Below are positions 1,647-15,948 of a DNA stretch of 64,000 bases, piece after piece. Below the pieces are notes generated by a model. It was given only the letters and a program-made list of their open reading frames with translations. It made no database searches and was not told the DNA's origin. The position numbers and the translations under genes are program-made. This DNA comes from Akkermansia muciniphila (GTDB taxonomy: Bacteria > Verrucomicrobiota > Verrucomicrobiia > Verrucomicrobiales > Akkermansiaceae): positions 1-64,000 of the forward strand of contig CAMDCV010000019.1 in NCBI GenBank assembly GCA_945890645.1, in the 5' to 3' direction. The number at the start of each line of letters is the position of its first letter. The first letter of the stretch is position 1.

Positions 1647-2413
1647 AATTTTTGGCTCGCTGGTGTTGTCTCGTTCTTGCTCTGGGCCTCGCCTCGGCGC
1701 AGGACAAACCCGCTCCGCGCCAAGTGCGCTTTCTCGCCGTAGGTGACATGCCGCCCTTTCGCCAAGAAATCCGCGACGGTGTGCGCTACGAACTTGAGGC
1801 CGAGCCTGGCACCATTCCCCCGCGCCTCATCCACATTCCGCTCGGCAAAGATCCCGTCGGCGAAAAACAATCGTTAGAAGCCACGTTGTCGCTCGGGGCC
1901 ATCACTCCCGCTCTGAAAATTCCTGGAGGTGAAGGCATCCTTACGATACAAACCAAAAGCGCCAATTCCTTGATCGACTGGCACAAAGCGACTTTGCCCG
2001 TGCGCGGCGACTGCCTTCTCTTGATCTGGCGCGACCCGCAAAAAAACACGTGGGAAGCCGCTCGTTCACTCGCCGTCGTCGATGATCTCACCACGTTCCC
2101 CGCCGGCAGCGTGCGCTTGATCAACCTACTGCCCACCACTTCCCGATTCGCATTCGCTGACCGCTCCCTCGACGTCAAAGCCGGCAGCGCCTCGATCCTA
2201 CCTGTGCCGCAGAGCACAACACCTGTGCAAATTTCCGTGCTCGACGCCGAGCAACAGTGGCGCGTCATCTACCAAAGCGCCATCAGCCAAAACCCCACGG
2301 AGCGAGGCAACGTCATCCTCTACAAAGCCGACGGCGTGAGCCCTCGCACCCCCGTGAAAGTCCTCAACCTCCGCGAGAGAGCTCCAACGCCACCTATGAA
2401 AACGGCGCCATAA
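1643..2413 (+). CDS. Secreted protein of unknown function
   Basis: 256 residues, beginning with a clear signal peptide (MKFLARWCCLVLALGLASAQ). No family was recognised. The mature part looks like beta-sandwich material: alternating hydrophobic strands, many Pro and Gly, and no clustered catalytic His/Asp/Cys. It overlaps the DUF1080 gene by 4 nt, so both are probably made together and exported. The C-terminus (APTPPMKTAP) ends seven bases before the stop codon of a broken comM copy on the other strand, so the natural C-terminus may have been altered when that fragment arrived. Function unknown. Confidence 0.7.
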   Translation: MKFLARWCCLVLALGLASAQDKPAPRQVRFLAVGDMPPFRQEIRDGVRYELEAEPGTIPPRLIHIPLGKDPVGEKQSLEATLSLGAITPALKIPGGEGILTIQTKSANSLIDWHKATLPVRGDCLLLIWRDPQKNTWEAARSLAVVDDLTTFPAGSVRLINLLPTTSRFAFADRSLDVKAGSASILPVPQSTTPVQISVLDAEQQWRVIYQSAISQNPTERGNVILYKADGVSPRTPVKVLNLRERAPTPPMKTAP

Positions 2414-2419
2414 TTTTTG

Positions 2420-2815
2420 TTACGAAAACAACTTCCGATCCGGAGAACGATATTGAATCGCTTCGAGGATTTGCTGCGATTGCATATTTCCCATGCCTTC
2501 GTGGTCGATGATAATGCTCGCGACTCTGAGGATGCGGTCGTAGGCGCGGGTGGAGAAGTTCATCGATTCCATCGCGTGTTCGAGATAGCTGGTGCTGGTG
2601 GCATCCAGCGCTCCATGCTCGCTGATGGTGGACAACTTTTCGCCGAGTTCCGTGGAGGCAATTATTTGAAATCCACCAAGGGCACCTCGCAGTGGATGTC
2701 GATCCTGTCTAACAATGGTCCAGAGATGCGCTGGCGGAAGTTCTCGATCTGCCGTGAAGAGCAGCGGCACTGACGCTTCACGTCTCCGTAATAACCACCT
2801 GGACACGGATACCAT
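2420..2815 (-). pseudogene. Decayed comM 3' fragment (copy A)
   Basis: The minus strand encodes the last part of ComM and ends with EAIQYRSPDRKLFS, against [14 protein letters not shown] in the intact comM at 14413-15948. Homology begins near the PCPGGYYGD segment (about 2812), matching the CPCGYYGD of intact ComM, continues through [11 protein letters not shown] in a second frame, meets an in-frame TAA and a frameshift, and resumes as STELGEKLSTI. About 32 codons present in intact ComM between STI and HCALDATS are missing. A 131-residue frame survives but only its last half follows ComM. The Mg-chelatase-type AAA+ core with its Walker motifs is absent. It is non-functional; its value is as a marker of past insertion at comM. 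Confidence 0.9.
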
Positions 2816-3070
2816 ATGGGTGACAATTACATGAAGCTAGAAAAGCCATATTTTCCAAGGGATTTAGCGACTATCGACCGCGTGCTAGAAGGTAACAAAC
2901 GCTGCCGGATTTGCAAGGAAGTCAAAAACCTCGCAAAATTCCGCATGATCAACAGCAAAGGTAAGTCATGGCCTAATTATGCCAGCATGCCCTGTTCTCG
3001 GGAAGTCCAACGCCAAGCTTATTTCAAAAGGGCGACAGCAGCCCAAATCCTCCGCCAAAGCTCTCCTTAA
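2816..3070 (+). CDS. Small putative zinc-ribbon protein, possibly truncated
   Basis: 84 codons from an ATG at 2816; a second ATG at 2831 (MKLEKPYF) is an equally good start and no clear ribosome-binding site decides between them. The segment [14 protein letters not shown] at about residues 31-44 resembles the first half of the treble-clef found at the head of endonuclease-VII/HNH-like proteins, where CxxC is followed by K-x-L-x-x-F. The expected second CxxC is reduced to a single Cys ([12 protein letters not shown]), so the zinc site looks incomplete. It starts where the comM copy A homology ends, so it may be part of what was inserted there. Weak gene; function unknown. Confidence 0.35.
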
Positions 3071-3125
3071 TCGAGATGACGGATCGCGGTTGAAAGCTAA
3101 TACTTAATAGAATCGTAGTGGTTTC

Positions 3126-4274
3126 ATGAAATTTTCATCAATCTGTGCCAACGCCTTAGCCATGGCCATGGCATGCGGCGTCAGTAGCGCAGAACCGAAC
3201 GCTAAGACACCAGAGACGGATATTCTCGTAGGCGTCAACTACTTCGCTGGTTGGTGGAAGGAACAGCCGAACAAATGGCACGGGCAGGGATGGAAAATCG
3301 GTCAGCCTGACTGGCGGCTGCAGTTCCCAGAGCGCGTGCCGACTTTGGGCGAATACAACGAACAGGCCACCATGGATCGCGAGATCATCGCCGCGTCCAG
3401 TCATGGCGTCGATTTCTTCGCCATCCTGTGGTATTTTCCGAAACCGGACAGCGTCGAGGCTAAAAATGCGCCCAAACTCAACCGTGGCCTAGAGCAATTC
3501 ATCGCATCGCCGGAAGCGCACCGCATGAATTTTTTCGTCGAGTACTGCAATTCACCGCGCTTCTCCGCCGAGAACGATGAGCAGTGGGCGCAGTGCATCC
3601 GCGTCTGGGTCGAGGCCATGAAACACCCTAGTTACCTGCACGTGGACGGCAGGCTAGTTTTCAAGGTTCACGACGTCAGCGGATTTCTCAGCGTGAACAA
3701 TCATGTCATCGACCTCTGCCGTAAACGCCTCGACACCCTGCGCAATGCCGTGCGCGCAGCAGGCTTGGGCGAAATGATCATCGGCGTCGGGATATCCGGA
3801 AAAACCCCGAGACTCGATCACAAGTGGCCATCCGCTTCGGTTTTTGATTTCAGCGGGACTTACATGAGCGTTCCGGAGGTGGAGGAACGCAAGGCTGAGC
3901 ATCCCTACTCCATCCTCGCCAAGGAGGCCCGCGAGACCCTCCAAAGACGCGCCGACGACCCGCTGCCCTGGATGCCGCATCTCGCTGCAGGCTGGAACCC
4001 GCGCCCTTGGACTTACGCCGACGCACCTCCCCACTACCAACGCTTCTTCACTTCCCCCACCCGCGAGGAATTCACCGACGAGCTACGCAACCTCAAACAA
4101 TCTCTCGCTCAACACCCAACCCTCGGTCTTCCTAGAAAAGACGGCACCACCCAGAAAGCCTTCTCGATTTACGCCTGGAACGAATTCGGCGAAGGCGGCA
4201 TCGTCGCCCCTGCCAAAGGTTCCGGCACCATGATGCTGGAAGCCATCCGTGAGGTTTTTGAAGAAACCAAATGA
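3126..4274 (+). CDS. Secreted GH99-like / WbsX-type glycoside hydrolase domain protein
   Basis: 382 residues with an N-terminal signal peptide (about residues 1-22). VGVNYFAGWW near residue 36 and YAWNEFGEGG near residue 350 are the hallmark ends of the GH99-like/WbsX TIM barrel, a family related to endo-acting mannosidases and also found in O-antigen loci. The Glu in WNEFGEGG is a plausible catalytic residue. It overlaps the sulfatase gene by 4 nt (ATGA at 4271-4274), and the sulfatase overlaps the DUF5060 gene in the same way, so three secreted enzymes are coupled. I infer one sulfated polysaccharide as substrate. Activity on a named linkage cannot be claimed. Confidence 0.8.
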   Translation: MKFSSICANALAMAMACGVSSAEPNAKTPETDILVGVNYFAGWWKEQPNKWHGQGWKIGQPDWRLQFPERVPTLGEYNEQATMDREIIAASSHGVDFFAILWYFPKPDSVEAKNAPKLNRGLEQFIASPEAHRMNFFVEYCNSPRFSAENDEQWAQCIRVWVEAMKHPSYLHVDGRLVFKVHDVSGFLSVNNHVIDLCRKRLDTLRNAVRAAGLGEMIIGVGISGKTPRLDHKWPSASVFDFSGTYMSVPEVEERKAEHPYSILAKEARETLQRRADDPLPWMPHLAAGWNPRPWTYADAPPHYQRFFTSPTREEFTDELRNLKQSLAQHPTLGLPRKDGTTQKAFSIYAWNEFGEGGIVAPAKGSGTMMLEAIREVFEETK

Positions 4275-5629
4275 AATACCTGCTCTCATCTCTTTTCGTC
4301 GTTGTATTGAGTTCTTTTGTGAATGCCAAACCCACTAGACCAAATGTGATCCTCATCCTCGCCGACGACCTCGGCTACGGTGAACTCGGATGCTATGGAG
4401 GCCCGGTAAAAACGCCGCACATCGACCGCCTTGCCACCAAGGGTGTGCGTTGCACCGACGGCTACTCGGCATTTCCCGTCTGTTCTCCCAGCCGCGCCGC
4501 ACTAATGACGGGGCGCTATCCGCAGCGCTTCGGCCCCACCTACGAGGATTACTTCGGCCACGGCGCACCGGAACTCGATCCCGTCAAACACAGCACCATC
4601 GCTAAATTGATGAAGGACGCCGGATACCGCACCGGCTGCTTCGGCAAATGGAATGTCTCCAACAAAAACCGCACACCCGCCAACGCCTTCGGCTTCGACA
4701 CCTGGGTCGGCCTGCACCTCAACCACGACTTCTACACCCACAAGCTCGTCGCCAATGGCGAGCACGATCTCTTTCGGGACGGAAAACCCTTCGACCAAAA
4801 GGGCGTCTGGTCGGACACCATTTTCGCCGATGAGGTGATCCGTTTTATTGAAGACGATTCCGAAAAGCCCTTCTTCATCTTCCTTCCTTTCCAAGCTCCC
4901 CACGATCCGATCCAAGACCCCCAAAAACCCTTCGCCGAACGGCTTTCCCCGCAGGATCCCGCGAATCGCCCAACCTTGGTGAAAATGATTGAACGCCTCG
5001 ACACCGAGGTTGGCCGAGTGCTCAATGGATTCGATGAAAAGGGGTTAGCTGACAACACCCTCATCATCTTCACCAGCGACAACGGCGGGGCCAAATTTCT
5101 GAGCAGAAACCTCCCGCTGCGTGGCGAAAAACAATTGCTGCTGGAAGGCGGCATCCGCGTGCCGATGATCCTGCGCTGGCCGGGCGTTTTGCCCGAGGGA
5201 AAAACCAACTCCACGCCCTTCATCGCCATGGACCTTACCGCCACCATCGCCGCCGCCGGTGGAGCGAAACCCCACGAGGCCCAACACTTCGATGGCATTG
5301 ACATGATTCCGATTCTCACCGGCAAAGCTGAACCAGATGCGAATCGCCCGCTCTTTTTCCGCCGCCGCAGCATCAACGTCCCGCAAGGCCAGAACCAGAT
5401 CCAACAGACCGCTGTCCGACAGGGCGATTGGAAACTTCTGCGAACCTACAAGACCTCCGCCAACCCTCCTTACCAAAGCGCCCTTTATCACCTCAAGGAC
5501 GACATCGGCGAAGCGAACAACCTGATGCCCAAACGACCAGAGAAAGCCAAAGAACTCGGCGAGCTGCTTGACCAGTGGGAAATTCAAATGACCGCTACGG
5601 CTGAACCGTTCCCAACCCAGAACAAATGA
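4271..5629 (+). CDS. Secreted family S1 sulfatase (formylglycine type)
   Basis: 452 residues with signal peptide MKYLLSSLFVVVLSSFVNA. Metal-binding PNVILILADDLGYGELGCYG (about residues 24-43) is followed by CSPSR at 71-75, the C-x-P-x-R motif in which Cys71 is converted to formylglycine, then ALMTGRYP. FTSDNGG near 268 supplies further metal ligands. Length is normal for S1 sulfatases. It removes sulfate esters, most likely from a polysaccharide, in the periplasm or outside. Overlaps of 4 nt on both sides place it in the middle of a coupled GH99-like/sulfatase/DUF5060 operon. A formylglycine-generating enzyme must be supplied from elsewhere; none is in the window. Confidence 0.95.
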   Translation: MKYLLSSLFVVVLSSFVNAKPTRPNVILILADDLGYGELGCYGGPVKTPHIDRLATKGVRCTDGYSAFPVCSPSRAALMTGRYPQRFGPTYEDYFGHGAPELDPVKHSTIAKLMKDAGYRTGCFGKWNVSNKNRTPANAFGFDTWVGLHLNHDFYTHKLVANGEHDLFRDGKPFDQKGVWSDTIFADEVIRFIEDDSEKPFFIFLPFQAPHDPIQDPQKPFAERLSPQDPANRPTLVKMIERLDTEVGRVLNGFDEKGLADNTLIIFTSDNGGAKFLSRNLPLRGEKQLLLEGGIRVPMILRWPGVLPEGKTNSTPFIAMDLTATIAAAGGAKPHEAQHFDGIDMIPILTGKAEPDANRPLFFRRRSINVPQGQNQIQQTAVRQGDWKLLRTYKTSANPPYQSALYHLKDDIGEANNLMPKRPEKAKELGELLDQWEIQMTATAEPFPTQNK

Positions 5630-8106
5630 AACCCATCCCCATCTTACTCATACTGCTCACCCCCTTCACCAGTCTCACGGCGGAAACCATCACCATCGAA
5701 GCCGAGAGTTTCACCAAACAAACCCTCGCACAAACCCGCAAGTGGGAAATCAAATCAGAGCTTCCCAGCGCGAGTGCCGGAAAATACATCCAAGTTCTTC
5801 CCGATACCCGCAAGACCCATGCGGACAAGCTCATCAAAGGCGAAAACTTCTCCGAAGAACCTGGTAAAATGGCCGTGCTCGAATTTCCCTTCGACGCCAA
5901 AGAACCCGGACGCTACTTCGTCTGGGCGCGCGCCTACTCCAGCAACTCGGAAGACAATGGCATGCACTTCGGCCTCAACGGCGCTTGGCCCGAGAGCGGG
6001 CGGCGCTGGCAAACCATCAAAACAGGCGACTGGCACTGGGACTGCAAACAACGCACCCCTGAAATCCACACCGGCGTGCCCATGCAGCTCTGGCTCGATG
6101 TCGAAAAAGCAGGTCCACAAACCCTCCTCCTCTCCATGCGCGAAGACGGCACCGCCGTGGACCAGATCACTCTAACCAAAGACCCCGCCTGGCGCCCCCC
6201 CGGCGTCACCTACGAGGAAAAAAAGCCACACGCCCCCATCACCCGCCAACCCGATGGCAACAGTACCGTCACCCTCAGCGGCGAGCTCAAACAATGGCAC
6301 AGAGTCTCCCTCACCCTCGATGGCCCCTTCGCCCACGAGCGCGACACCCAGCCCAATCCCTTCACCGATTGCCGCTTCGACGTCACCTTCACTCACGAAA
6401 GCGGCCAGCCCAGCTACCGCGTCCCCGGCTACTTCGCCGCCGATGGCAACGCCGCCGAATCCTCAGCCGAATCCGGCACCCAATGGCGCGCCCATCTCTC
6501 CCCCGACAAACCCGGCAAATGGACCTACCGCATCCATTTCTCCCGCGGTCCCAATGCCGCCGTCACCCCACCGTCTAACAATAACGCACAACCACTCCCA
6601 CCCTTCGACGGAAAAACCGGCCACTTCACCATCGCCCCCTCCGACAAAACCGGCCGCGACTTCCGCGCCCACGGCCGGCTCCGCTACGTCGGCAAACACT
6701 ACCTGCAATTCGCCGGCAGCGGCCAATACTTCCTCAAAGCCGGTGCCGACTCCCCCGAGACCATGCTCGCCTACGCCGACTTCGATGGCACCCAGGCCCA
6801 CAAAAAAAACATCCCCCTCAAAACCTGGCAACCCCACCTCCGCGACTGGCGCGAGGGCGATCCGCAGTGGCGTGACGGCAAAGGCCGCGGCATCATCGGC
6901 GCCCTCAACTACCTCGCCTCCAAAGGCGTCAACTCCTTCTCCTTCCTCACCTACAACACCAGCGGCGATGGCGACAACGTCTGGCCTTTCATCGAACGCG
7001 ATAACAAACTCCACTACGACTGCTCCAAGCTCGACCAATGGGGCATCGTCTTCGACCACGCCACCACCCGCGGCCTCTACCTCCACTTCAAACTCCAGGA
7101 AAACGAAATGGACGACCACCGAGCCGGCCAAGAGCGTAAACCCCGCTCCATCCCCGCCGCCCTCGACGGTGGTGCCCTCGGCCCCGAACGCAAACTCTAC
7201 TGCCGCGAAATGATCGCCCGCTTCGGCCACGCCCTCGCCCTCAACTGGAACATCGGCGAAGAAAACACCCAAACCACCGACGAAGTCCGCGACATGGCCA
7301 CCCACCTCCGCGCCACCGATCCCTACGACCACCTCATCGTCCTCCACACCTTCCCCCAGGAGCAGGAAAAAATCTATCGCCCCCTCCTCGGCCAACGCGA
7401 CATCCTCACCGGCCTCTCCCTCCAAAACCTCTGGAGCAGCGCCCACCAACGCACCCTCCAATGGCGTAACGCCTCCGGAGAAAAAGGCCACCCCTGGGTC
7501 GTCGCCCAAGACGAACAAGGCCCAGCGGGTCTGGGCGTTCCTCCCGATGCGGGATACGACGGCTACGACGGTCTCGCGACCGAGCCCGACAAAAAGAAAG
7601 AAAACGCCGCCGTCGGTGACGTCAAAGTCCCCGGCTACACCGCCCACGACATCCGCAAACACACCCTCTGGGGCACGCTCATGGCCGGCGGCGCAGGCGT
7701 GGAGTATTACTTCGGCTACTCACTTCCGCAAAACGATCTCATTTGCCAAGACCTCCGCAGCCGCGACCAAAGTTGGGACTACTGCCGCATCGCGCTCGAT
7801 TTCTTCCGTAAGGAAAAAATCCCCTTCCACGAAATGACCAACGCCAACGCCCTCATCGGCAACATCAAAAACGACAATTCCCGCTACTGCTTCGCCAAGC
7901 CCGGCGCACTCTACCTCGTCTATCTTGCAGACGGTGGAACTTGCACCATCGATCTCACCATGGAAAAAGGCGAGTTCCGCCTGAACTGGTTCAACCCTCG
8001 TATGGGTGGTGCGCTTGTCACTGCCGGGAAGATCGAAGGAGGTAAGGTGACTAAGCTTGTCGCTCCAGAAGCCAAAGACTGGCTCGCCGTTATAACCAAG
8101 GGATAA
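5626..8106 (+). CDS. Secreted multidomain glycosidase: CBM-like, DUF5060, TIM barrel, collagen-binding-like C-terminus
   Basis: 826 residues. A signal peptide (MKPIPILLILLTPFTSLTA) is followed by a beta-rich segment of about residues 20-190 (TITIEAESF, typical of CBM-like domains), a DUF5060 immunoglobulin-like domain at about 210-315 (FDVTFTHESGQPSYRVPGYF), a TIM barrel at about 345-720 with NWNIGEEN as likely catalytic Glu region, and a C-terminal beta domain resembling the putative collagen-binding domain (PF12904). This architecture is known in secreted plant or algal glycan hydrolases. The central part is strikingly C-rich at third positions compared with neighbours. Third gene of the GH99-like/sulfatase operon, starting inside the sulfatase stop. 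Substrate unknown. Confidence 0.85.
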   Translation: MKPIPILLILLTPFTSLTAETITIEAESFTKQTLAQTRKWEIKSELPSASAGKYIQVLPDTRKTHADKLIKGENFSEEPGKMAVLEFPFDAKEPGRYFVWARAYSSNSEDNGMHFGLNGAWPESGRRWQTIKTGDWHWDCKQRTPEIHTGVPMQLWLDVEKAGPQTLLLSMREDGTAVDQITLTKDPAWRPPGVTYEEKKPHAPITRQPDGNSTVTLSGELKQWHRVSLTLDGPFAHERDTQPNPFTDCRFDVTFTHESGQPSYRVPGYFAADGNAAESSAESGTQWRAHLSPDKPGKWTYRIHFSRGPNAAVTPPSNNNAQPLPPFDGKTGHFTIAPSDKTGRDFRAHGRLRYVGKHYLQFAGSGQYFLKAGADSPETMLAYADFDGTQAHKKNIPLKTWQPHLRDWREGDPQWRDGKGRGIIGALNYLASKGVNSFSFLTYNTSGDGDNVWPFIERDNKLHYDCSKLDQWGIVFDHATTRGLYLHFKLQENEMDDHRAGQERKPRSIPAALDGGALGPERKLYCREMIARFGHALALNWNIGEENTQTTDEVRDMATHLRATDPYDHLIVLHTFPQEQEKIYRPLLGQRDILTGLSLQNLWSSAHQRTLQWRNASGEKGHPWVVAQDEQGPAGLGVPPDAGYDGYDGLATEPDKKKENAAVGDVKVPGYTAHDIRKHTLWGTLMAGGAGVEYYFGYSLPQNDLICQDLRSRDQSWDYCRIALDFFRKEKIPFHEMTNANALIGNIKNDNSRYCFAKPGALYLVYLADGGTCTIDLTMEKGEFRLNWFNPRMGGALVTAGKIEGGKVTKLVAPEAKDWLAVITKG

Positions 8107-8187
8107 CATAAGGAAAAAAATTCTAAGAAATCCCGAATCCAAGTGTCCTAAAAAGTAAGGCCCATAGGAACCCAGAATACCAAGAGC

Positions 8188-9303
8188 ATGAAAACTACAA
8201 TGACATTCATCGTGATCGCAACACTCGTCACGAATCTCTCAGCAACCAAGTTCGGGCCGCAAGATAGCCACACGGTGAAATCCACTAACCACAAATTCGA
8301 GCTCCGTGTGGACACCAAAAGCACAACGCAGCGAATCACTGGAGCCTTCGGCTCAGGCCTTGAAGGATGGACCTTCCAACATGAGGCGGAGCAAAACAGC
8401 TTCTTTGTTAGCGACGATGGCGAAGCGGCAGCGGTCGTCCAGTGGTCATGGATCCAGGATTATTCTCTGAACAAAGCGGCCGTCGTCATCTACGGGCGAT
8501 CCGGCGCGGAACGAACCTACACCTACAATGAACTCTCGAAACCGCGCGAGCGTAAGCCCGAGGAGATCGGCCCCATTGGCGATTTCTGGCGCGTCTGGCG
8601 GGGCGACGCCACCATCAATGGCAATTTGCTCACGATCAACATTGAAGGCGGCGAGTCCCGAGTCATCGATCTGAAAAATCCTCAAGCCCTTCCGCCGCAT
8701 GAGGCAGGCGATGAAACCGACAAGGCCCCACAGACGAGGGAGGAAATGGAGAAGATGCTCAGAGAGCGCGAAATAAAAGAAAGCGAAGCTCAGACGGCGG
8801 AGAATCCAAAAATTGATCAGGAATTCCTCGCCATAAAGGCAGAAGAGACCGCAGAGATCGAGTCATCCTTCCCCGCTTTGAAGCCCTTGCTCGGGAGCAT
8901 CACGGAACAATCGCAGCTCAAGGTCTTGGGTGGACTTCCCAACCAGATCATGGACGACAAGCTATTCGAAAAGACACTCAAGGCCAAGGGCACGGTCGAA
9001 CGTCACGGTGAGACCTTCTTCAAGAATCCTTTCAAGCTTGAGACAGAAGACGCCGAGAGTCTCAAGACCCTGATCAGGGATCCCCGCTCTTTCAGCAAGA
9101 TCACGGATCCGCTTCTACCGGCGGGTTTCGGTGCGGCCTATTCCCTAGTCTATGAAACCAATGGCAGCGTGACAGAGATCCAGATATGCTCCAGAAACCA
9201 CAAAATCCGGGCTATCCACAAGGAAGTAGATATTTACTCCTACCTCACACCAGAGGCCTTCAAGAAAATTAACGAACTTCTCGGGAAATACGAAGCGCCA
9301 TAG
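8188..9303 (+). CDS. Secreted protein of unknown function
   Basis: 371 residues. The start MKTTMTFIVIATLVTNLSA is a signal peptide. The N-terminal half (about 30-170) is beta-rich with several Trp; the middle (about 180-225) is a charged helical stretch rich in Glu/Lys (EEMEKMLREREIKESEAQ) that could form a coiled coil; the C-terminal third is mixed. No family recognised and no catalytic motif seen. It lies 81 nt after the DUF5060 gene and 30 nt before an anchored helical protein on the same strand, so 8188-10368 may be a small operon within the block bounded by comM copies A and B. Confidence 0.65.
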   Translation: MKTTMTFIVIATLVTNLSATKFGPQDSHTVKSTNHKFELRVDTKSTTQRITGAFGSGLEGWTFQHEAEQNSFFVSDDGEAAAVVQWSWIQDYSLNKAAVVIYGRSGAERTYTYNELSKPRERKPEEIGPIGDFWRVWRGDATINGNLLTINIEGGESRVIDLKNPQALPPHEAGDETDKAPQTREEMEKMLREREIKESEAQTAENPKIDQEFLAIKAEETAEIESSFPALKPLLGSITEQSQLKVLGGLPNQIMDDKLFEKTLKAKGTVERHGETFFKNPFKLETEDAESLKTLIRDPRSFSKITDPLLPAGFGAAYSLVYETNGSVTEIQICSRNHKIRAIHKEVDIYSYLTPEAFKKINELLGKYEAP

Positions 9304-9333
9304 CCTGAGCGAGTTACGTTAATTAGGCTCATC

Positions 9334-10368
9334 ATGAAAATCCTGACAAACTACCGCTGGCTCATCCTGATAATTCTCCTTATTGTGGGAACATGGTATG
9401 CGATGTCTCAACAGAAAGCCCGTTCTAGCTCACAGACAAGGGACAAGCATCAAGCGTATGATGCCATGACCAAAACAAGTCGCACAGTAGAAGATCCGAC
9501 CACAAGCGCCACACGCCGCCACCGCGAAGCTGCAAAAGATCGATTGGCCAATGTGAGATCCCCCCTCGCCAAGCGCTATCTGCGCTTCATGCTGCCCGGC
9601 GGACGCTTGGATGAAGAGTCCTACGACCAATCCATCGTCAACAACGCTTTCCAACAAGCGTGGTGCGTGACCGCCCGCATCGACCTGACCGAAGAGCAGC
9701 AGGATCGCCTCGCCGAGTTTCTCCTGCAGGAAGACTTCTCAATGTGGATCACCATGGATCGTGCACGAGTTGAGGAGTGGGCCAAGGAGCATCTGTCCGA
9801 CGAACAGCGGGCGGCTCTGCTGGCATTCATCGAAGAATCCGAGCAAGGCCAGCGGGACCTCTCAGAGTTGCGGATAAACTTGAAAAAGAAGGAATACGGG
9901 GTTGGTTCTCCGGAAGAAGCCTTCACCGCCGAGATGCGGGACAGCGCCAGAATCGCAGAACTGCTCGCCAAGGACACTGATAACCTCTCCGAGGAAGAAG
10001 TGGAAAAAATGAGAGTAGAACTGAAAGCCATGATGACAAGACCCACCGCACTCAATGACGATGCGAACGCCGTCAAAATCGAGGAAACCTACAAGGGCGA
10101 AAATGCCGAGCAGTTCTTCCATCTCCTCGCCGACCGCATCCCCATGACCAACGAACAACATCTTGCCATCTATGATGCCCTCCAGAAGGGCTCCACCCCG
10201 CCCACCAATGCTTATGACTACCAATTGCGCCCCGCTGACCAAGTCGAAGCGGAGGTCAGATCCTCCACGAATTGGATGCGCGAGAAACTCACCCACGAGC
10301 AATACGAAACCTACCTCAGGCACTATCTCGCCGAGATCGAGATAGTCCGGTTCCAAATTTCCCAGTAG
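9334..10368 (+). CDS. Membrane-anchored helical protein of unknown function
   Basis: 344 residues. An N-terminal hydrophobic helix (about residues 8-24, WLILIILLIVGTWYA) without a clear cleavage site suggests a single-pass anchor facing the periplasm. The rest is almost entirely charged helix with DLTEEQQDRLAEFL and HLSDEQRAALLAFIEE, a style seen in Verrucomicrobiota and Planctomycetota proteins where a residue pattern such as LT-x-EQ repeats. No family was recognised. It sits 30 nt downstream of the secreted unknown at 8188-9303. Its end is 142 nt from comM copy B, which runs the opposite way. Confidence 0.6.
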   Translation: MKILTNYRWLILIILLIVGTWYAMSQQKARSSSQTRDKHQAYDAMTKTSRTVEDPTTSATRRHREAAKDRLANVRSPLAKRYLRFMLPGGRLDEESYDQSIVNNAFQQAWCVTARIDLTEEQQDRLAEFLLQEDFSMWITMDRARVEEWAKEHLSDEQRAALLAFIEESEQGQRDLSELRINLKKKEYGVGSPEEAFTAEMRDSARIAELLAKDTDNLSEEEVEKMRVELKAMMTRPTALNDDANAVKIEETYKGENAEQFFHLLADRIPMTNEQHLAIYDALQKGSTPPTNAYDYQLRPADQVEAEVRSSTNWMREKLTHEQYETYLRHYLAEIEIVRFQISQ

Positions 10369-10510
10369 TGACAACACCCATCGATTTCTAACTTCACATG
10401 ATTTTCCAAGATGCAAGCAGGTCGGCCGCACAGGCGTAAACGAGAACACTTCACACAGAGAAAAATCGTATCATTCGTCATTTTAGAGAACAACTCTTCA
10501 TTTTGCAGCC

Positions 10511-11045
10511 TCACTCAAACAACTGCCGATCCAATGAGCGGAACTGAATCGCTTCTAAAACCTCGTTGCTTGTGATGTCAGGTTTGCCTGCTAAGTCAGC
10601 CAAGGTTCTAGCGACTTTCAAAATGCGATCATGAACGCGGGCTGAAAAGTTCATCTGCTCCATCGCATGTTCAAGGTCGCCTTTGCCCTCAGCATCGAGC
10701 TTGCAGCACTCGCGCACCTGCTTCACGCCCATCGCAGCGTTGGTCGAGAGCTTGGCCGTCTTCAAACGAGCCACTTGGACGTTGCGCGAAGCTGCGACCC
10801 TTTCCCTCAACACCGCCGATAACTCGCCGGTGTTCGTATCCGAAGTAAGCTCGCGGAAATTGACCAAAGGAACTTCGACGTGGATGTCGATGCGATCTAA
10901 CAATGAACCGCTAATGCGTTTGCGATAGTTTTCAATCTGGCGCACCGAGCAGCGGGACATGCGCGCACCAATTCCCCCAGAATTTCCCCATTACCACAAG
11001 GACATGGGTTCATCGCCGCCACTAGATGGCCAACAGCAAAGCATG
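10511..11045 (-). pseudogene. Decayed comM 3' fragment (copy B), diverged
   Basis: The minus strand carries the last third of a ComM/YifB protein in two frames. One frame gives [15 protein letters not shown] (near 11030), the other [32 protein letters not shown] and onward to EAIQFRSLDRQLFE at the stop (10511). A frameshift and a shortened linker separate the pieces near 10960. Compared with intact ComM ([40 protein letters not shown]) it is far more diverged than copies A and C, so it is either an older duplication or came from another comM lineage. The AAA+ Walker motifs are missing. It ends about 30 nt from the HxlR gene stop, marking the boundary of that module. Confidence 0.9.
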
Positions 11046-11074
11046 ACAACCGGACGATTGGCCTACCCCAAAAC

Positions 11075-11431
11075 CTACTCCACACGCCCAGCGCGCCGGT
11101 CCTTCAGACGGTGACCGACGGCCACAATCGCCTCGATCGCCGGCTTTAGTTCGCAGCCCAGATCAGTCAGGGAATATTCAACGGTCGGCGGCGAAGTCGG
11201 TTTCACGGTGCGAAGTACTACCCCATCAACCGCGAGCTTTTTTAATCGTGTCGACAACACCTTGGCGGATACCCCTTTGAGGTCGCCCTTCAACTCGCTG
11301 AAAGTCCTGGGAGAATGTCCCAGATACCAAATAATGCCCGGTGTCCAAGCGCCTCCGATGATGCCGAGGCACTCGCGAAGCGGACATGTATTCGGCGGCG
11401 GAGTCACTTTATTTTTTCTACGAGGAACCAT
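11075..11431 (-). CDS. HxlR-family winged-helix transcriptional regulator
   Basis: About 118 residues from the ATG at 11431 (MVPRRKNK); an upstream in-frame start at 11464 is possible but less likely. CPLRECLGIIGGAWTPGIIW, SELKGDLKGVSAKVLSTRL and VEYSLTDLG are the standard HxlR signature: a Cys near the N-terminus, helix-turn-helix, and wing. Family members sense electrophiles or oxidants, often through that Cys, and control nearby reductases. It is transcribed away from the nitroreductase and nitronate monooxygenase genes, with a 96-bp shared promoter region holding an imperfect palindrome at 11489-11505, so it likely regulates them. Confidence 0.9.
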   Translation of the reverse strand: MVPRRKNKVTPPPNTCPLRECLGIIGGAWTPGIIWYLGHSPRTFSELKGDLKGVSAKVLSTRLKKLAVDGVVLRTVKPTSPPTVEYSLTDLGCELKPAIEAIVAVGHRLKDRRAGRVE

Positions 11432-11488
11432 GCAATGATATCGGGTTTCCCGATGGTAACCCAATTTTAAGATTTCCGCAAGATAGCA

Positions 11489-11505
11489 AGTTTACAAAAG
11501 TAACT
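11489..11505. promoter_or_regulatory. Candidate HxlR operator
   Basis: The sequence AGTTTACAAAAGTAACT lies midway between the divergent HxlR regulator and nitroreductase genes. Its arms AGTT(T)AC and GTAACT match with one bulged base around AAAA. HxlR/YodB-type regulators commonly bind short dyads of this sort next to the genes they control. The site is seen directly; its use is inferred from position. Confidence 0.4.
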
Positions 11506-11527
11506 AACTGACTACTTTACGGCCACC

Positions 11528-12157
11528 ATGACATCTAAAACTAACACCATGACCGCCACAGAAGCCATCAAATCCCGCCGCTCCGTAAAGCACTTCGATT
11601 CCTCACACCACATGACCGAGGAGGAAATCGCCCAACTGATCGAGTTAGCCAAACTTGCTCCCTCTTCTTTCAACATGCAGAACTACCGCTTCGTGTTGGT
11701 GCTTGATTCGGAGCTTCGGCAAAAAATCCGCGCCGTGGCATGGGATCAGGCCCAGGTTACCGATGCCTCGTTGCTTGTGATCTTGTGCGCCGATCTAACC
11801 GCCCACTCGAACAATCCTCAACGCTACTGGGCGCAAGCACCGCAGGAAGTGCAAGACATACTCGTGCCAGCGCTCACCCCCTTCTACGAGGGAAAACCCA
11901 CCCTTATCCGCGACGAGGCAATGCGCTCAACGGGCTTCGCAGGGATGACGCTCATGCTTGCCGCGCGCGACATGGGCTATGACTCCTGCCCAATGATCGG
12001 GTTCGATGCTGAGGCCGTCTCGAAACTCATTAATTTACCTGGAGACCACGTTCTCAGCTTCATGCTCGCTATCGGCAAACAAGCGAAACCCGTCTGGCCG
12101 CGCGGCGAACGCCTGCCCGACAGCGAGGTTGTCATCCATGATCGTTTCAACGCATGA
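11528..12157 (+). CDS. Nitroreductase-family FMN oxidoreductase
   Basis: 209 residues; the first ATG (11528) or a second at 11549 (MTATEAIKSRRSVKHFD) may be the start. AIKSRRSVKHFD, LAKLAPSSFNMQNYRFVLV and GFAGMTLMLAARDMGYDSCPMIGFD are typical of small nitroreductases that use FMN and NAD(P)H to reduce nitro groups, quinones or similar electrophiles in the cytoplasm. The stop overlaps the next start (ATGA at 12154-12157), coupling it to nitronate monooxygenase. Divergence from an HxlR regulator suggests induction by reactive electrophiles. Physiological substrate unknown. Confidence 0.9.
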   Translation: MTSKTNTMTATEAIKSRRSVKHFDSSHHMTEEEIAQLIELAKLAPSSFNMQNYRFVLVLDSELRQKIRAVAWDQAQVTDASLLVILCADLTAHSNNPQRYWAQAPQEVQDILVPALTPFYEGKPTLIRDEAMRSTGFAGMTLMLAARDMGYDSCPMIGFDAEAVSKLINLPGDHVLSFMLAIGKQAKPVWPRGERLPDSEVVIHDRFNA

Positions 12158-13203
12158 ATACGAACCTTCTCGCTCGCCTTGGCATGGCAATTCCCGTCAT
12201 CCAAGGTCCATTTGGCGGCGGACTATCGACAGTGAAACTCACCGCCGCCGTGACTAATGCCGGAGGCATGGGTTCATACGGTGCGCATCTGTTAGAACCT
12301 CGGGAAATTATCGATGTGACTCATGCAATCCGCCAGAAAACTGACGGCCCGTTCGTGATGAACTTGTGGGTCGACAGAGAGGATGAATCATCCCGAAAAA
12401 CCGATTCCCCCACCTTCGGGCGCGCGGTTTCCGAAATGGAGGCTATCTATCAAAAACATCATGTTGCTCCGCCTATTTTCGCGGCGTCAGAACCTCTCGA
12501 TTTCGAGCGACAAGCGGAGGCCATTCTGGAGGCTTGCCCCCCGGTCTTCAGTTTCGTATTCGGCATCCCCTCTCGGGAAATCCTCAACGAATGCCGGAAG
12601 CGTGGCATCGTCACTATGGGTGCGGCAACCACCCTCGATGAAGCGCAAGCTATTGAAGCCGCTGGTGTGGACATCGTGCTTGCCACCGGATTTGAAGCTG
12701 GGGGACACCGTCCGTCCTTTCTCCGGCCCGCCGCCGATTCATTGCACGGCACATTCGCACTGGTTCGCCAAATCGTCGAGTCGGTGAGTATTCCGGTCAT
12801 CGCGGCTGGCGGCATCGCCGATGCAAAAGGCGTGGTCGCCGCGATTACTCTCGGAGCTTCCGCCGTGCAGGTCGGCACCGCTTATCTCGCCTGCGAAGAA
12901 TCCGGTGCCCACCCCATCCACAAAGAAACACTCTTCCAACCATCCGCACGCCATACCCGCTTGAGCGACCACGTCACCGGACGCCTCGCCCGTTTCATCG
13001 TCACCCCCACACTCGAGCAACTCGAGAGAACCAACCGGATCCAACTTGGATACCCGATTCAGGGCGAACTCACCCGCCCGTTCAATGCAATGAATGAAGG
13101 CCTTTTCTACGCAGGACAAGGCGCACCGCTTCTGCACCACCACAACGCCACCGATCTCACGCGTGCTCTAGCGGCTCTCATCTCAACAATCACAAAATCA
13201 TGA
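12154..13203 (+). CDS. Nitronate monooxygenase (NMO/NPD family)
   Basis: 349 residues, a normal length. IPVIQGPFGGGLS at the N-terminus, DIVLATGFEAGGHRPS around residue 170 (phosphate and FMN binding, with the family's GGH), PVIAAGGIADAKGVVAAITLGASAVQVGTAYLACEES (in two parts around 215-250) and the C-terminal NAMNEGLFYAGQG fit FMN-dependent nitronate monooxygenases, which oxidise alkyl nitronates such as propionate-3-nitronate. It shares an ATGA overlap with the nitroreductase gene, so the two probably act together in detoxifying nitro compounds. Its stop is 203 nt from comM copy C; the AT-rich gap between them holds no gene. Confidence 0.9.
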   Translation: MNTNLLARLGMAIPVIQGPFGGGLSTVKLTAAVTNAGGMGSYGAHLLEPREIIDVTHAIRQKTDGPFVMNLWVDREDESSRKTDSPTFGRAVSEMEAIYQKHHVAPPIFAASEPLDFERQAEAILEACPPVFSFVFGIPSREILNECRKRGIVTMGAATTLDEAQAIEAAGVDIVLATGFEAGGHRPSFLRPAADSLHGTFALVRQIVESVSIPVIAAGGIADAKGVVAAITLGASAVQVGTAYLACEESGAHPIHKETLFQPSARHTRLSDHVTGRLARFIVTPTLEQLERTNRIQLGYPIQGELTRPFNAMNEGLFYAGQGAPLLHHHNATDLTRALAALISTITKS

Positions 13204-13406
13204 ACAAGCCCACTGCCCTCCAGTTTATTCTTCACTAACTCTCTTCCCACGCAAGGGCATCAATCAATCAGTCGATTCAAAAATTCATTCCCAAATCATT
13301 TTGAAATTTTTGATGAATGCGAAAGCAGGCATCATCGCAAAGTAATGAATTACTATCATTAAATCCCTCTACAAAATATGTTAAATTTTTTCAGAACTAC
13401 CTCCTC

Positions 13407-13528
13407 TTAGGAAAACAACTTCCGATCTAACGAACGATACTGGATCGCTTCGAGAATGTGTTGCGACTGTATATTTTCGGTGCCTTCTAGGTCGGCGTTG
13501 GTTCACGCGACCTTGAGGATGCGTCGCG
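13407..13528 (-). pseudogene. Short comM 3' end duplicate (copy C)
   Basis: This stretch repeats the last ~117 bp of the intact comM (14413-14530) in the same orientation; by eye about 106 of 117 positions agree. Translated on the minus strand it gives RILKVA, an in-frame stop, then [19 protein letters not shown] and [12 protein letters not shown]. Nothing upstream of RILKVA is present, so the copy is cut there. With the intact comM end it forms a direct repeat around the BRO-N gene, the pattern expected when an element inserts into or beside comM and carries a replacement 3' end, or when unequal recombination duplicates it. Confidence 0.9.
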
Positions 13529-13545
13529 CTTGATCGATAGAGCCC

Positions 13546-14394
13546 TTAGGATGTGGATTTTTTGTGGGCGAGACGTTTTGCGGACTCGGGAAGTGCTTTG
13601 AAATTTTCTTTGGTGGCGATGCTTTTGCCGCTTTGTTGTTCAAGGTCGAGGCGGGCTTTGCCGGCGACGGAGCCGCCGTCTTTGGCGGCCTTTTTGTTAT
13701 CGAAAAACCCTTGGGCATCACGCTTCTTGGCAATCTCGGTGGTGGAGGCTTCGCCGAGCATGGTGAAAATGAGCTCGAGATCAGTCATGTGATCGCGTAG
13801 GTTGTCCTTGGGGTTGGAAAGTGCCTTGTAGTCTTTGTATTCCGATGGCGTCATGCCGAAGGTAGCTTTGCTGATCTCGGCAGTGAGGATGGCGAATTCT
13901 CGGCATTCCTTGACGCCGCGTTTTTTCCATTCATCGGTGAGTTCGTCGCGCACGGCGATGCCGCGTAAGCGTTTCTCGATCCATTCTTCGGAGTAGCCCT
14001 TCTGCTCGTAAATCGTGCGCATGCGTTTCGCTGCGAGTTCCGGATTTTCGATTTCTTCCAGACGTTCGTAGCCGACTTTGGCGAGCCATAGCTTGAACGG
14101 CTCGGCTTTGGGAGAAGGGATGGACTGAATCAGGCGAAGAAGCTGCTCGGTATCGGCGACATCGGTCATGCGCTGTTTGCCGTCGGCGGCGGTCATTTTC
14201 AAAGCGTTACAATTTGTAACGCTTTCATTTCCCTCATCCATGAGACGCTTTTTCATCACGCGCCAATAGGTTTGCGGATTCGAGCTGTTGGTGAGAATGG
14301 CGATTACATCGACGATGGCGAACAGCCATTTTTCCTGCTCCGCATTCCAAGCGCGGCGGACTTGTTTTTCTTCAAATAGCGATAGGTTGGACAT
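13546..14394 (-). CDS. BRO-N domain protein (phage antirepressor / DinD-like)
   Basis: 282 residues. The N-terminal part (about 1-110) contains QVRRAWNAEQEKWLFAIVDV, NPQTYWRVMKKRL and WLAKVGYERLEEIENPELA, the hallmarks of the BRO-N/Bro-like domain seen in phage antirepressors, baculovirus BRO proteins and bacterial DinD-like proteins. The C-terminal half (EFAILTAEISKATFGMTPSEYKDYK, MTDLELIFTMLGEASTTEIAKK) matches the helical domain of chromosomal DinD-like members. It likely binds DNA. It is flanked by comM copy C (17 nt downstream) and the intact comM stop (18 nt upstream), so it is the cargo of a roughly 1-kb duplication-bounded insert. Role unknown. Confidence 0.85.
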   Translation of the reverse strand: MSNLSLFEEKQVRRAWNAEQEKWLFAIVDVIAILTNSSNPQTYWRVMKKRLMDEGNESVTNCNALKMTAADGKQRMTDVADTEQLLRLIQSIPSPKAEPFKLWLAKVGYERLEEIENPELAAKRMRTIYEQKGYSEEWIEKRLRGIAVRDELTDEWKKRGVKECREFAILTAEISKATFGMTPSEYKDYKALSNPKDNLRDHMTDLELIFTMLGEASTTEIAKKRDAQGFFDNKKAAKDGGSVAGKARLDLEQQSGKSIATKENFKALPESAKRLAHKKSTS

Positions 14395-14412
14395 GGGGGT
14401 GCGTTGTGGAAT

Positions 14413-15948
14413 TTAGGAAAACAACTTCCGATCCAGTGAACGATACTGGATCGCTTCGAGGATGTGATGCGACTGAATATTTTCCGTGCCTTCTAGGTCG
14501 GCGATGGTTCTTGCGACCTTGAGAATGCGGTCGTGGGCGCGGGCGGAGAAGTTCATCGATTCCATGGCGTGTTCGAGATAGCTGGTGCTAGTGGCATCGA
14601 GCGCACAGTGTTCGCGCACGAGCTTGGCGGACATCGCGGCATTGGTGGAGACGCCTTTGTTTTTGCGAAATCGCTGGGTCTGCACTTCGCGTGCTGCCGC
14701 TACGCGCTCGCGGATGGTGGAGGACTTTTCGCCGAGTTCCGTGGAGGACAATTCTTTGAAATCCACCAACGGCACTTCCACATGGATATCGATCCGATCT
14801 AACAAGGGACCGGAAATTTTCTGCCGGTATTTTTCAATCGCCCGCGACCCGCAGCGACACTCTCGTTTTGCATCGCCGTAATAGCCACAAGGACAGGGGT
14901 TCATCGCCGCCACTAGCATGAAACGAGAAGGGAAAGTCAGCGAGCCAGCAGCGCGAGAGATTGTCACGTGACCATCTTCCAAAGGCTGTCGCATTACCTC
15001 GAGCGTTTGACGACGGAACTCGGGCAATTCATCGAGAAATAAGAGGCCATGATGCGATAGCGATACCTCGCCCGGTCCCGGATTAGTGCCACCGCCGAGC
15101 AATCCCGCATCGGAAATGGTGTGGTGCGGCGCGCGATACGGACGCGTGGTGATGAACGACCTTTTCGGATCGAGATAGCCGGCGATGGAGTGGATTTTTG
15201 TCGTCTCGATCGCTTCCTCTTCGCTCATGTCAGGCAAGATGCTCGGCAGTCGTTTGGCGAGCATCGACTTACCCGTGCCCGGTGGGCCGACCATCAGAAT
15301 ATTGTGTCCACCAGTCGCGGCGATTTCTAACGCGCGCTTCACCTGATACTGCCCTTTGACTTCTTCGAAATCGACATCGTAATGCCGGTGCGACTCGAAA
15401 AATGCCTGCCGATCAATCACGCACGGTGCCAACGCTTCGGTGCCGGTAAGAAATCCCCATGTCTGGTGCAGCGAGTCCACGCCATAGACTTCGATGCCTT
15501 CCACAATCGCCGCCTCGGGTGCGTTCGCCGTCGGCACGATGACTCGTTTTTTTCCTTGCGCCCGAGCTTCTAACGCAATCGGCAGCGCGCCTTTGATCGG
15601 TCGTACCGTGCCATCGAGTGCTAGCTCTCCCGCGACATAACAATCGTCCGCGGGCAAGGCCAATTCCCCGCAGGCGGATGCCATGGCAAGCGCGATCGGC
15701 AGGTCAAACGAGGGCCCTTCCTTTTTCACATCGGCAGGGGCTAAATTCACCGTCTTACTGCCATCGCTAAAGGGCAATGCCGAGGCAATGATCGCCGAGG
15801 TCACGCGCTGGATCGACTCCCGCACCGCGGCATCGGGGAGACCAACGACAAAGATCTGTGGCTTTTCCGAGCCCCAGGCATTGACCTCCACTTCCACTTC
15901 TTGGGCATCGACCCCGCGCAAGGCAGCTGAATATATTCGAGTAATCAT
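14413..15948 (-). CDS. comM: ComM/YifB family Mg-chelatase-like AAA+ ATPase
   Basis: 511 residues, the usual length. The N-terminal ChlI-like domain ([34 protein letters not shown]) is followed by Walker A GPPGTGKS, Walker [11 protein letters not shown], sensor [13 protein letters not shown] and a C-terminal ChlI_C domain ending [14 protein letters not shown]. ComM is a hexameric helicase that promotes branch migration during natural transformation. It is intact and on the minus strand, diverging from the sigma factor gene over 332 bp. Its gene is a known insertion site for genomic islands in Acinetobacter, which fits the three broken 3' copies in this window. Confidence 0.95.

Follow-up and report, generated by a model that had tools for sequence, protein, structure and literature searches.

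Displaced 3′ copies of comM with intervening cargo suggest serial insertion at one conserved gene in Akkermansia muciniphila

The window, the whole stretch of 64,000 nucleotides analysed here, carries one intact comM whose product has ChlI, Mg_chelatase and Mg_chelatase_C domains (Pfam). Downstream of it lie three 3′ pieces of the same gene, in the order C, B, A and all on the comM strand (Table 1), as an earlier note made from the letters alone had described; blastn and tblastn of comM against the window agree. E values of 3e-13 to 6e-61 in this comparison rule out chance similarity, and a genome-wide search for comM found no further pieces. The positions given earlier hold, except that homology stops at 2808 rather than 2815 in A and at 11025 rather than 11045 in B. 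Fragments A and C extend to the comM stop, and the alignment of B ends at most two codons short of it. The gene at 1643–2413 lies 6 bp past fragment A. Among the open reading frames of the block of at least 80 aa, Pfam and NCBIfam identify no integrase or transposase, as already remarked from the letters, and no transposition genes of the tniA/tniB/tniC type.

Table 1. Features of the comM array in the window, in order of position
Feature	Coordinates	Strand	Description and basis
Ancestral comM downstream neighbour	1643..2413	+	adjoins comM directly in G002 and G006
Fragment A	2420..2808	-	comM codons 351/353-511, internal deletion
Attachment-site arm (P-arm) and core	2801..2825	-	joined to comM codon 353; end comparison
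84-aa ORF at element end	2816..3070	+	resembles zinc-finger part of endonuclease VII/HNH proteins
Cargo, WbsX-like	3126..4274	+	family search
Cargo, sulfatase-like	4271..5629	+	NCBIfam matches below their cut-offs
Cargo, DUF5060/collagen-binding-like	5626..8106	+	family search
Cargo	8188..9303	+	searched, no family match
Cargo	9334..10368	+	searched, no family match
Fragment B	10511..11025	-	comM codons ~345-511
HxlR regulator	11075..11464	-	distal gene of middle module; family search
Cargo, nitroreductase	11528..12157	+	family search
Cargo, nitronate monooxygenase-like	12154..13203	+	family search
Fragment C	13407..13526	-	comM codons ~473-511, native type
BRO-N protein	13546..14394	-	PADLOC candidate defence family PDC-S13; 18 bp past comM stop
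comM (YifB/Mg-chelatase-like AAA+ protein)	14413..15948	-	intact, 511 aa; blastn/tblastn
comM upstream neighbour	16281..17141	+	sigma-factor-like by eye

The three fragments differ in their relation to the intact gene. Fragment C (13407–13523, comM nt 1420–1536) is 90.6% identical to it (E 2e-41), close to the 91% estimated by eye, and has one in-frame TGA. Two parts of B (10517–10749 and 10856–11025, comM nt 1298–1530 and 1033–1191) match at 70%, and as protein B matches codons 358–510 at 64% (E 1e-54). Among 17 comM genes its nearest is that of the Luteolibacter-group genome G303 (79%, versus 64% to its own comM), with identity reaching 94% in the last window of the comparison. Judged by these matches, B is foreign from about codon 357 onward. 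Its first ~32 nt resemble native comM weakly (31/33, versus 29/33 for the next best), and its diagnostic sites display no significant break (p 0.89). The divergence of B, first noted as the most diverged copy, reflects foreign origin and not age alone, which rules it out as simply the oldest copy.

Fragment A, probably the displaced original comM 3′ end, consists of two parts separated by an internal deletion: 2420–2622 (comM nt 1334–1536, 84.7%, E 5.5e-61) and 2609–2808 (comM nt 1051–1251, 76.6%, E 4e-37). It is a mosaic, foreign-like at ~2690–2800 and native at ~2420–2690. Native versus foreign diagnostic sites number 3/11 through codon 392 and 29/2 beyond, with a cut picked after viewing the alignment; the best break falls at codon 385, with a permutation p of 0.0002 across all breaks. 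This switch from foreign-like to native suggests homologous recombination. With B foreign and A mosaic, decay cannot be used to date the copies; the repeated events that had been read from graded decay find their support elsewhere, in empty sites. The present 3′ end of the intact comM is of native type, so the last two elements must have had close relatives as donors, unless recombination has since restored comM.

Comparison of comM loci in relatives, proposed with the original observation, does reveal empty sites. Two same-genus genomes, G002 and G006, have a single comM whose immediate downstream neighbour is homologous to the gene at 1643–2413, which supports serial accretion. Modules also vary among relatives: in G009, whose comM is the most similar (97% aa), the gene that separates comM from that genome's 3′ piece is a different one, a DinD (NF008573). 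The locus thus combines an intact target, displaced same-orientation target fragments, intervening cargo and an empty site in relatives, the features of a tandem island. Of eight same-genus loci in which comM is complete, five have the upstream neighbour beside it (G003, G004, G006, G008 and G009). Genes past this neighbour vary among same-genus relatives as well, so downstream variability alone proves little, and the argument is carried by the fragments and junctions.

Comparable arrays, or comM genes split by islands, are found across the family. More than one match to the comM C-terminus occurs in 41 of 260 genomes, and 84 partial pieces whose start is no earlier than codon 200 lie in 40 genomes (one row of 28% identity excluded). 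Their starts cluster at conserved motifs. Codons 341–354, which include NPCPCG, account for 26 of the 84 (binomial P 6e-15, a descriptive value, since neither pieces of the same fragment nor related genomes count as independent), and smaller clusters lie at codons 316–327 (10), 378–383 (7) and 460–474 (10). At least eight starts are at contig ends; of those that could be checked, one (G406:C70) belongs to the 341–354 group. Arrays in the single-contig genomes G232 and G263 show that they are no assembly artefact. As a control, rpoB gave 41 matches in 44 genomes with one extra piece, probably a gene cut by contigs. Another control gene, radA (TIGR00416), was discarded, with 0/44 genomes at the family cut-off and many weak matches on comM itself.

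An element junction lies at the start of fragment A. Here a fixed attachment core adjoins an element arm, the P-arm, that A shares with islands carrying a large serine recombinase (LSR): the arm of A equals that of the G211 island, is by eye a variant of that of the G015 island, and is common to comM fragments in other genera. Since A starts at this arm, its most likely identity is an attR scar left by an LSR. A pattern built from these ends matches eight places in 6 of 386 genomes, seven of them joined to comM at codon ~353 and one (G005) not so joined; G328:C69 is the sole new place, and the reversed pattern has no match. In G211 the junction arms form inverted repeats (15/17 bases by eye), like an LSR attP, with the halves on two contigs. 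The arm was not seen at B or C and is absent from the other BRO-N modules, whose comM pieces start at codons 427–483. Compared with their own comM, six of eight arm-linked pieces are less identical in codons 353–372 than in the following 20 codons; G276 and G288_c lack this dip, that of A is small (68 vs 70%, with a rise only at codon 393), and the minimum of G303_1 comes later (58% at codons 393–412). G303_1 and G303_2 are 93–100% identical over codons 350–379 and then 51–86% over 380–439.

Among relatives, an LSR lies within 1 kb of a junction in six of ten split-comM genomes (G045, G034, G211, G179, G309 and G293), those of G179 and G293 being about 580–590 aa long; the other four have none near the junction, and two of these have one inside the interval. 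No LSR was found near comM in the intact-comM arrays searched, a set to which G264, G356, G259, G276, G413 and G191 do not belong. The genome of the window has no match to the serine-recombinase families PF00239 and PF07508. It has five matches to the tyrosine family PF00589; the three listed are on contigs C7, C2 and C6, and none on the window contig, C19. PF00589 occurs in 30 of 30 genomes searched, but a tyrosine integrase was rejected as the agent, no listed match being on the window contig. For an integron gene-cassette array, marked by attC sites and an adjacent IntI tyrosine integrase, the matches listed likewise place no such integrase on C19.

The BRO-N gene next to comM, a candidate defence gene by its assignment to PDC-S13, also stands behind comM in nine other genomes. 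Among 34 BRO-N places inspected of 35 listed, ten start 15–30 bp past the last matched comM codon, one more follows a comM at ~1 kb, and 23 lie elsewhere, which rules out a strictly comM-specific element. A further comM piece directly follows BRO-N in five of the ten (G000, G232, G303, G264 and G356), and the other five have none within 0.7–1.5 kb on the far side. Among the best 80 of 284 public BRO-N loci, only two adjoin comM, and G303 is one of these two.

Direct observations are the comM fragments, the relatives' empty sites, the common element end, the LSRs at relatives' junctions, the foreign B and the mosaic A. A probable account of them is that LSR islands founded the site and that cassettes bearing a comM 3′ end then accreted, partly by homologous recombination. 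The array would consist of remnants of elements that entered the 3′ region of comM in series. Every element would supply its own 3′ end, so that comM is left whole and the prior 3′ end is displaced downstream as a scar. In the founding step LSR islands may have cut comM at conserved motifs, with A as the attR scar at codon 353 (NPCPCG). Later, cargo between comM 3′ copies could have been exchanged or inserted by homologous recombination in comM, for example during natural transformation. Against this account weigh the missing serine recombinase in this genome, the four split-comM genomes with no LSR near a junction, the uneven dip among arm-linked pieces, the weakly native start and missing break of B, the armless C and other BRO-N modules, and the native 3′ end of the present comM. 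We infer the element-borne 3′ ends, the order of events, the recombination and transformation route, and the mode of entry of the BRO-N module.

Purely site-specific accretion in the style of SCC or ssrA islands offers another course: all modules would be LSR-mobilised from an attP that includes the comM 3′ end, homologous recombination would play no part, and many modules would since have lost the LSR gene. The precise P-arm, common at codon 353, and the LSRs at relatives' junctions fit this course, and ssrA islands lacking integration modules are described in part of PMC3146451. We hold it unlikely, with a modest chance of being right, given the mosaicism of A and of the pair G303_1 and G303_2, the many start codons that lack the arm (474 in C, ~427–483 in other BRO-N modules), and LSR islands here that break comM instead of restoring it.

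Break and repair would dispense with element-borne 3′ copies. An LSR island splits comM, DNA from a relative repairs the gene and brings in a neighbouring gene, and deletions shrink the islands. Relatives' comM genes are indeed split by LSR islands and the present 3′ end is native; recovery of comM by recombination is also raised for Acinetobacter, where it was not above chance in the relevant section of PMC11472951. Several independent cycles, each with shrinkage to modules of one or a few genes, would be needed, and B shows that the array once held a foreign 3′ end, which makes this course quite unlikely.

Homing-type spread, with comM cleaved by a gene product and the encoding gene then copied in together with the donor's downstream stretch of comM, is very unlikely. 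The architecture, a gene plus a displaced 3′ copy, is that of fungal mitochondrial mobile ORFs as a passage of PMC3630166 describes them, and the small ORF at the element end resembles endonuclease VII zinc fingers (E 0.0014 for the window copy, 1.5e-5 for the G313 copy) and recurs at the A-type element end in other genomes. In the window, G005 and G313 it stops after 72–99 aa and shows no catalytic part, the remaining copies carry frameshifts or have undefined limits, and viral contigs scanned with it yielded no relative; HNH homing through this short ORF was dropped as the main explanation. BRO-N has no nuclease domain in Pfam, the cargo of the modules is mutually unrelated, and cutting of comM is hypothetical. 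Local tandem duplication of comM with decay and chance gene gain between copies, to which the native C and A tail lend some support, is extremely unlikely. B and the P-arm have largely disproved it already, and the empty sites, motif-centred starts and rpoB control also speak against it.

A more tentative reading, less likely than not, is that comM-3′ cassettes form a mobile gene-cassette system lacking its own recombinase and enter the comM of related competent cells by the homology arms they carry. ComM is a helicase that helps heterologous transforming DNA to integrate. If this reading holds, the two flanking comM 3′ copies are the homology arms, comM is always left working, ComM would help the cassettes to enter its own gene, and this slot would often hold candidate defence genes (PDC-S13, DinD-like, SoFic-like and a CBASS-type effector). 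The arrays are in any case a place to search for new single-gene defence systems. Family-wide, comM has been struck at several conserved motifs yet is whole in many genomes, apparently through imported 3′ ends. Its scars preserve donor, insertion point and crossover, making a history of gene gain readable at one locus and allowing homologous recombination to be tested against site-specific integration.

Genes of the Mg-chelatase/comM type are strongly enriched as LSR targets, and in Acinetobacter comM is well known for harbouring islands. SCC elements use Ccr serine recombinases to enter the 3′ part of rlmH, leave the gene functional and build composite tandem islands with short rlmH repeats. 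The comM arrays likewise sit at the 3′ part of a conserved, still functional gene, in composite tandem islands; unlike SCC, they have no ccr here and their target pieces are long.

Durrant et al. (2022) found Mg-chelatase/comM-like genes to be targeted by 12.4% of predicted site-specific integrases (PMC10083194); the target family is the same, and the passage concerned contains no description of tandem arrays, of displaced 3′ ends or of a regenerated comM. The AbaR parallel drawn earlier applies to comM as an integration hotspot, shared with the AbaR/AbGRI islands of Acinetobacter. AbaR is Tn7-like and leaves comM broken, and other Acinetobacter insertions in comM bear defence systems such as CBASS and Zorya, according to the section of PMC11472951 on this site; transfer of AbaR by natural transformation has been shown (part of PMC8787482). 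An AbaR-like insertion is ruled out here, as comM is intact over 511 codons, and scars and junction machinery in relatives are of LSR type. The fungal mobile ORFs (atp6 and others) insert a foreign gene with a new 3′ end and displace the native one, but are driven by homing endonucleases in a different genetic system (a passage of PMC3630166).

The open-licence PMC literature yielded no description of displaced comM 3′ arrays. The ssrA islands of Dehalococcoides use the serine recombinase DsiB and stand in tandem, bounded by repeats of the target 3′ end; 15 have no integration module, and accretion is discussed (PMC3146451, in its passages on these islands). The comM arrays are similarly tandem and bounded by copies of the target 3′ end, with LSRs at relatives' junctions. 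They differ in their target, a protein gene whose pieces reach ~190 codons, rather than a tmRNA gene with a 20-bp repeat, and in having more than one att motif as well as traces suggestive of homologous recombination. The comM arrays are best read as a variant of SCC/ssrA-type tandem islands, and a new one among these.

The comM block holds one intact comM followed by truncated comM 3' copies, with cargo genes between them. The earlier note had claimed one intact comM and three truncated copies in the same orientation, and this is borne out by significant matches of fragments A, B and C to comM in both blastn and tblastn. No other comM fragments occur in the whole genome (G000).

Features of the comM block, in order downstream from comM
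Feature	Position	Strand	Remarks
intact comM	14413-15948	minus	
BRO-N gene	13546-14394		18 bp after comM
near-perfect palindrome	14201-14225		25 bp, within the BRO-N gene
fragment C		minus	codons ~473-511
nitronate monooxygenase, nitroreductase, HxlR			
fragment B		minus	codons ~345-511
five cargo genes			
small ORF	2816-3070		84 aa
fragment A		minus	codons 351/353-511, internal deletion
bordering gene	1643-2413		6 bp beyond fragment A

Full-length comM is present in eight of nine same-genus genomes, G005 having only a 3' piece. An empty site with a single comM, predicted by the earlier note, is found in G002 and G006: a homologue of the bordering gene (49-50% identity over 234-247 aa) adjoins comM convergently at 7-18 bp, with no comM fragment in the stretch examined beyond comM. 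Because fragment A adjoins this same gene in the window, A marks the original comM end, and about 12 kb has been added behind comM. Modules also vary among relatives, as the earlier note predicted. In G009, with 97% comM identity, comM is followed by a DinD gene (NF008573, E 5e-119) and then a 3' piece, but neighbours past the upstream sigma-factor-like gene likewise vary within the genus, and differences downstream of comM therefore say little by themselves. In same-genus G001, a Schlafen-type helicase gene (PF09848; L042:13709-16102) with weaker PADLOC matches directly adjoins comM.

Extra comM pieces recur across the family. Codons 350-511 matched 234 of 260 family genomes, with more than one match in 41 of the 260 by our own count (28 of 64 matched genomes in genus g13 versus 1 of 75 in g3). 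When a contig boundary interrupts comM, its two halves can also register as two matches. A whole-comM search of 40 genomes, a non-random set comprising 37 with more than one such match and three (G211, G381 and G223) with one, gave 85 partial pieces whose start falls at or beyond codon 200. Leaving out one row of 28% identity (G259:C195) and counting pieces of one broken fragment separately, 84 starts include 26 at codons 341-354, 10 at 316-327, 7 at 378-383 and 10 at 460-474; 47 of the 84 pieces extend to codon 508 or later. Some starts are mere contig ends (G223:C22, G401:C314, G328:C69 first piece, G169:C92, G357:C120, G406:C70, G254:C147 and C222 first piece), in a check of plus-strand pieces and of minus-strand pieces on contigs of known length. 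The control gene rpoB gave one extra partial piece in 44 genomes, four of which had no rpoB match. Arrays also occur in genomes that are single contigs: a 15-kb stretch of G232 holds comM plus three more pieces, and in G263 one piece lies 0.85 kb downstream of comM. In G052, from another family of the order, a 4-kb module separates comM from a 3' piece that is 98-100% identical to it from codon 413 (L036:5757-11794); this array is a very recent insertion.

A split comM, with its two parts at separate places or on separate contigs, is seen in ten genomes (G015, G034, G045, G130, G179, G211, G223, G293, G309 and G381), a count that leaves out partial comM in G005, G396, G400 and G402, where a split is indistinguishable from a missing or cut contig. 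A large serine recombinase (LSR) domain (PF07508) lies 600-725 bp from a junction in six of the ten (G045, G034, G211, G179, G309 and G293). LSRs lie farther inside the split interval in G130 and G015, and none was found for the split comM of G381 and G223. Among the junctions read, splits fall at Walker A (~codon 215), LEDG (~324) and NPCPCG (~352).

DNA just outside fragment A (2801-2825, into the small ORF) is homologous to the sequence immediately bordering comM pieces in G042 (another family of the order), G303 (three copies), G211, G313, G309 and, weakly, G328. Nine of ten such ends aligned enter comM at about codon 353, the exception being G005. A pattern of this putative attachment-site arm gave eight matches in six of 386 genomes, seven of them joined to comM, and none when reversed; it was derived from these same ends, so that only G328:C69 is new, and at three mismatches it misses the decayed window copy, G211 and G042. 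G211 has both junctions, each on a separate contig; by eye, their arms match as inverted repeats at 15 of 17 bases, which would be expected of an LSR attP. Fragment A is most likely, judging from these sequences, a scar of LSR islands like those splitting comM in relatives. A search of 386 genomes found the small ORF in 8. It is similar to the zinc-finger region of endonuclease VII/HNH families: the G313 copy matches phrog_1035 (E 1.5e-5) and the window copy phrog_2633 (E 0.0014). At a guess, it may encode a DNA-binding protein with an accessory role in the element. At the G005:C33 end (L050 right end), the comM 3' piece is preceded, ~250 bp upstream, by a sequence that by eye resembles tRNA-Leu. 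About 20 kb away on the same contig the arm abuts DNA other than comM, and this element may therefore be located elsewhere than in comM.

The fragments differ in their nearest relatives. Fragment C is closest to the window's own comM (90.6%), then G009, as is the tail of A (75-93% by window after codon 392). Fragment B is closest among 17 comM genes to that of G303, a g13 genome (79.4%, versus 63.9% for its own) and has an 11-12-nt insertion near codon 360 in common with the arm-linked piece G303_3. At diagnostic sites separating native (G000 = G009) from the g13 majority, A reads 3 native against 11 foreign as far as codon 392, then 29 against 2 beyond it (Fisher 2.4e-6, the cut chosen after seeing the alignment); by permutation, the best break falls at codon 385 (p 0.0002). 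B shows no break in this test (p 0.89). Nor does the two-part split reach significance in B, the G005 piece G005f, G303_1 or G303_2, the sites being unsuited to the last two. Identity between G303_1 and G303_2 is 93-100% over codons 350-379, dropping to 51-86% over 380-439.

Eight arm-linked pieces and four without an arm were compared with comM of their own genomes. Identity over codons 353-372 is lower than over 373-392 in six of the eight (A 68/70%, G303_1 70/80%, G303_2 70/85%, G042_C103 71/88%, G263 80/95% and G042_C60 83/95%) and not lower in G276 (88/88%) and G288_c (96/91%). Identity in A climbs to 93% at codon 393, and that in G303_1 is lowest (58%) at codons 393-412, which is at odds with a simple stub. 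We read these patterns together as the probable result of crossing over, within the 3' part of comM, between resident copies and those borne by elements; A is the clearest case.

Candidate defence genes occur among the cargo. The window BRO-N protein matches the PADLOC candidate family PDC-S13 (E 6e-127), and in ten genomes (G000, G232, G303, G328, G336, G385, G403, G406, G264 and G356) the BRO-N start lies 15-30 bp beyond the final codon matched in comM or in a comM piece. A further comM piece directly follows in five, starting at codon ~474 (G000), 480 (G232), 427 (G303) or 452 (G264, G356); the other five have none in the 0.7-1.5 kb examined beyond BRO-N. Between G232 and the window, BRO-N is 88% identical and comM 75%, which points to transfer of the BRO-N gene. 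G259 has a single-gene slot behind comM with a SoFic-like protein, and in G042 a TIR-STING (CBASS-type) effector gene lies ~200 bp from a comM 3' piece (L061:11480-12640).

PDC-S13-like BRO-N genes also lie behind other DNA-metabolism or defence genes (L119, L120, L122, L123, L131, L134): 11-13 bp behind Cas3 in G377 (partial TIGR02621 match, below cut-off), with the same tail in G403; 12-19 bp behind a gene that we take to be Cas6e in G370 and G211, the latter with Cse2 upstream (by family); and ~180-210 bp behind mutS in G304 (NF003810), with the same tail in G400. None of these Cas3, Cas6e-like and mutS loci showed a duplicated 3' end. At L125 (G356:C113) a truncated BRO-N (1261-1770) is flanked by a 340-bp direct repeat at 91% identity. 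The repeat does not come from comM and seems to be the 3' portion of some other gene, which would make this the same gene/3'-copy layout at a different target.

A four-step history would account for the array. comM would at first have adjoined the bordering gene. An ~8-kb module (2.8-10.5 kb) would then have arrived, carrying a foreign 3' end (B) at one flank and the arm with a comM stub at the opposite flank, displacing A and leaving it part stub, part native. The HxlR/nitroreductase/monooxygenase module would have followed with a native-type 3' end, displacing B, and the BRO-N module would have displaced C. As C and the present comM 3' end are native, the last two steps would need donors close to this species.

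The array is real and informative, and is largely explained by known principles of islands at a regenerated target. Published work gives magnesium-chelatase homologues as targets of 12.4% of predicted site-specific integrases (Durrant et al., PMC10083194), and describes tandem serine-recombinase islands at Dehalococcoides ssrA; the 3' repeat of the target flanks these islands, 15 of which lack an integration module (PMC3146451). Islander applies the principle of regenerated target and displaced fragment to tRNA genes, and fungal mobile ORFs duplicate C-termini (PMC3630166). In Acinetobacter, AbaR interrupts comM, as do other elements with CBASS or Zorya (PMC11472951), comM islands are transferred by natural transformation (PMC8787482), and ComM is a helicase in transformation (PMC11472951; title cited in PMC8787482). 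A search of open-licence PMC papers found no description of displaced comM 3' arrays. In its form the array combines long 3' ends of a protein gene with several att motifs, inter-genus 3' ends and at least one clearly mosaic scar, a combination for which that search gave no earlier account.
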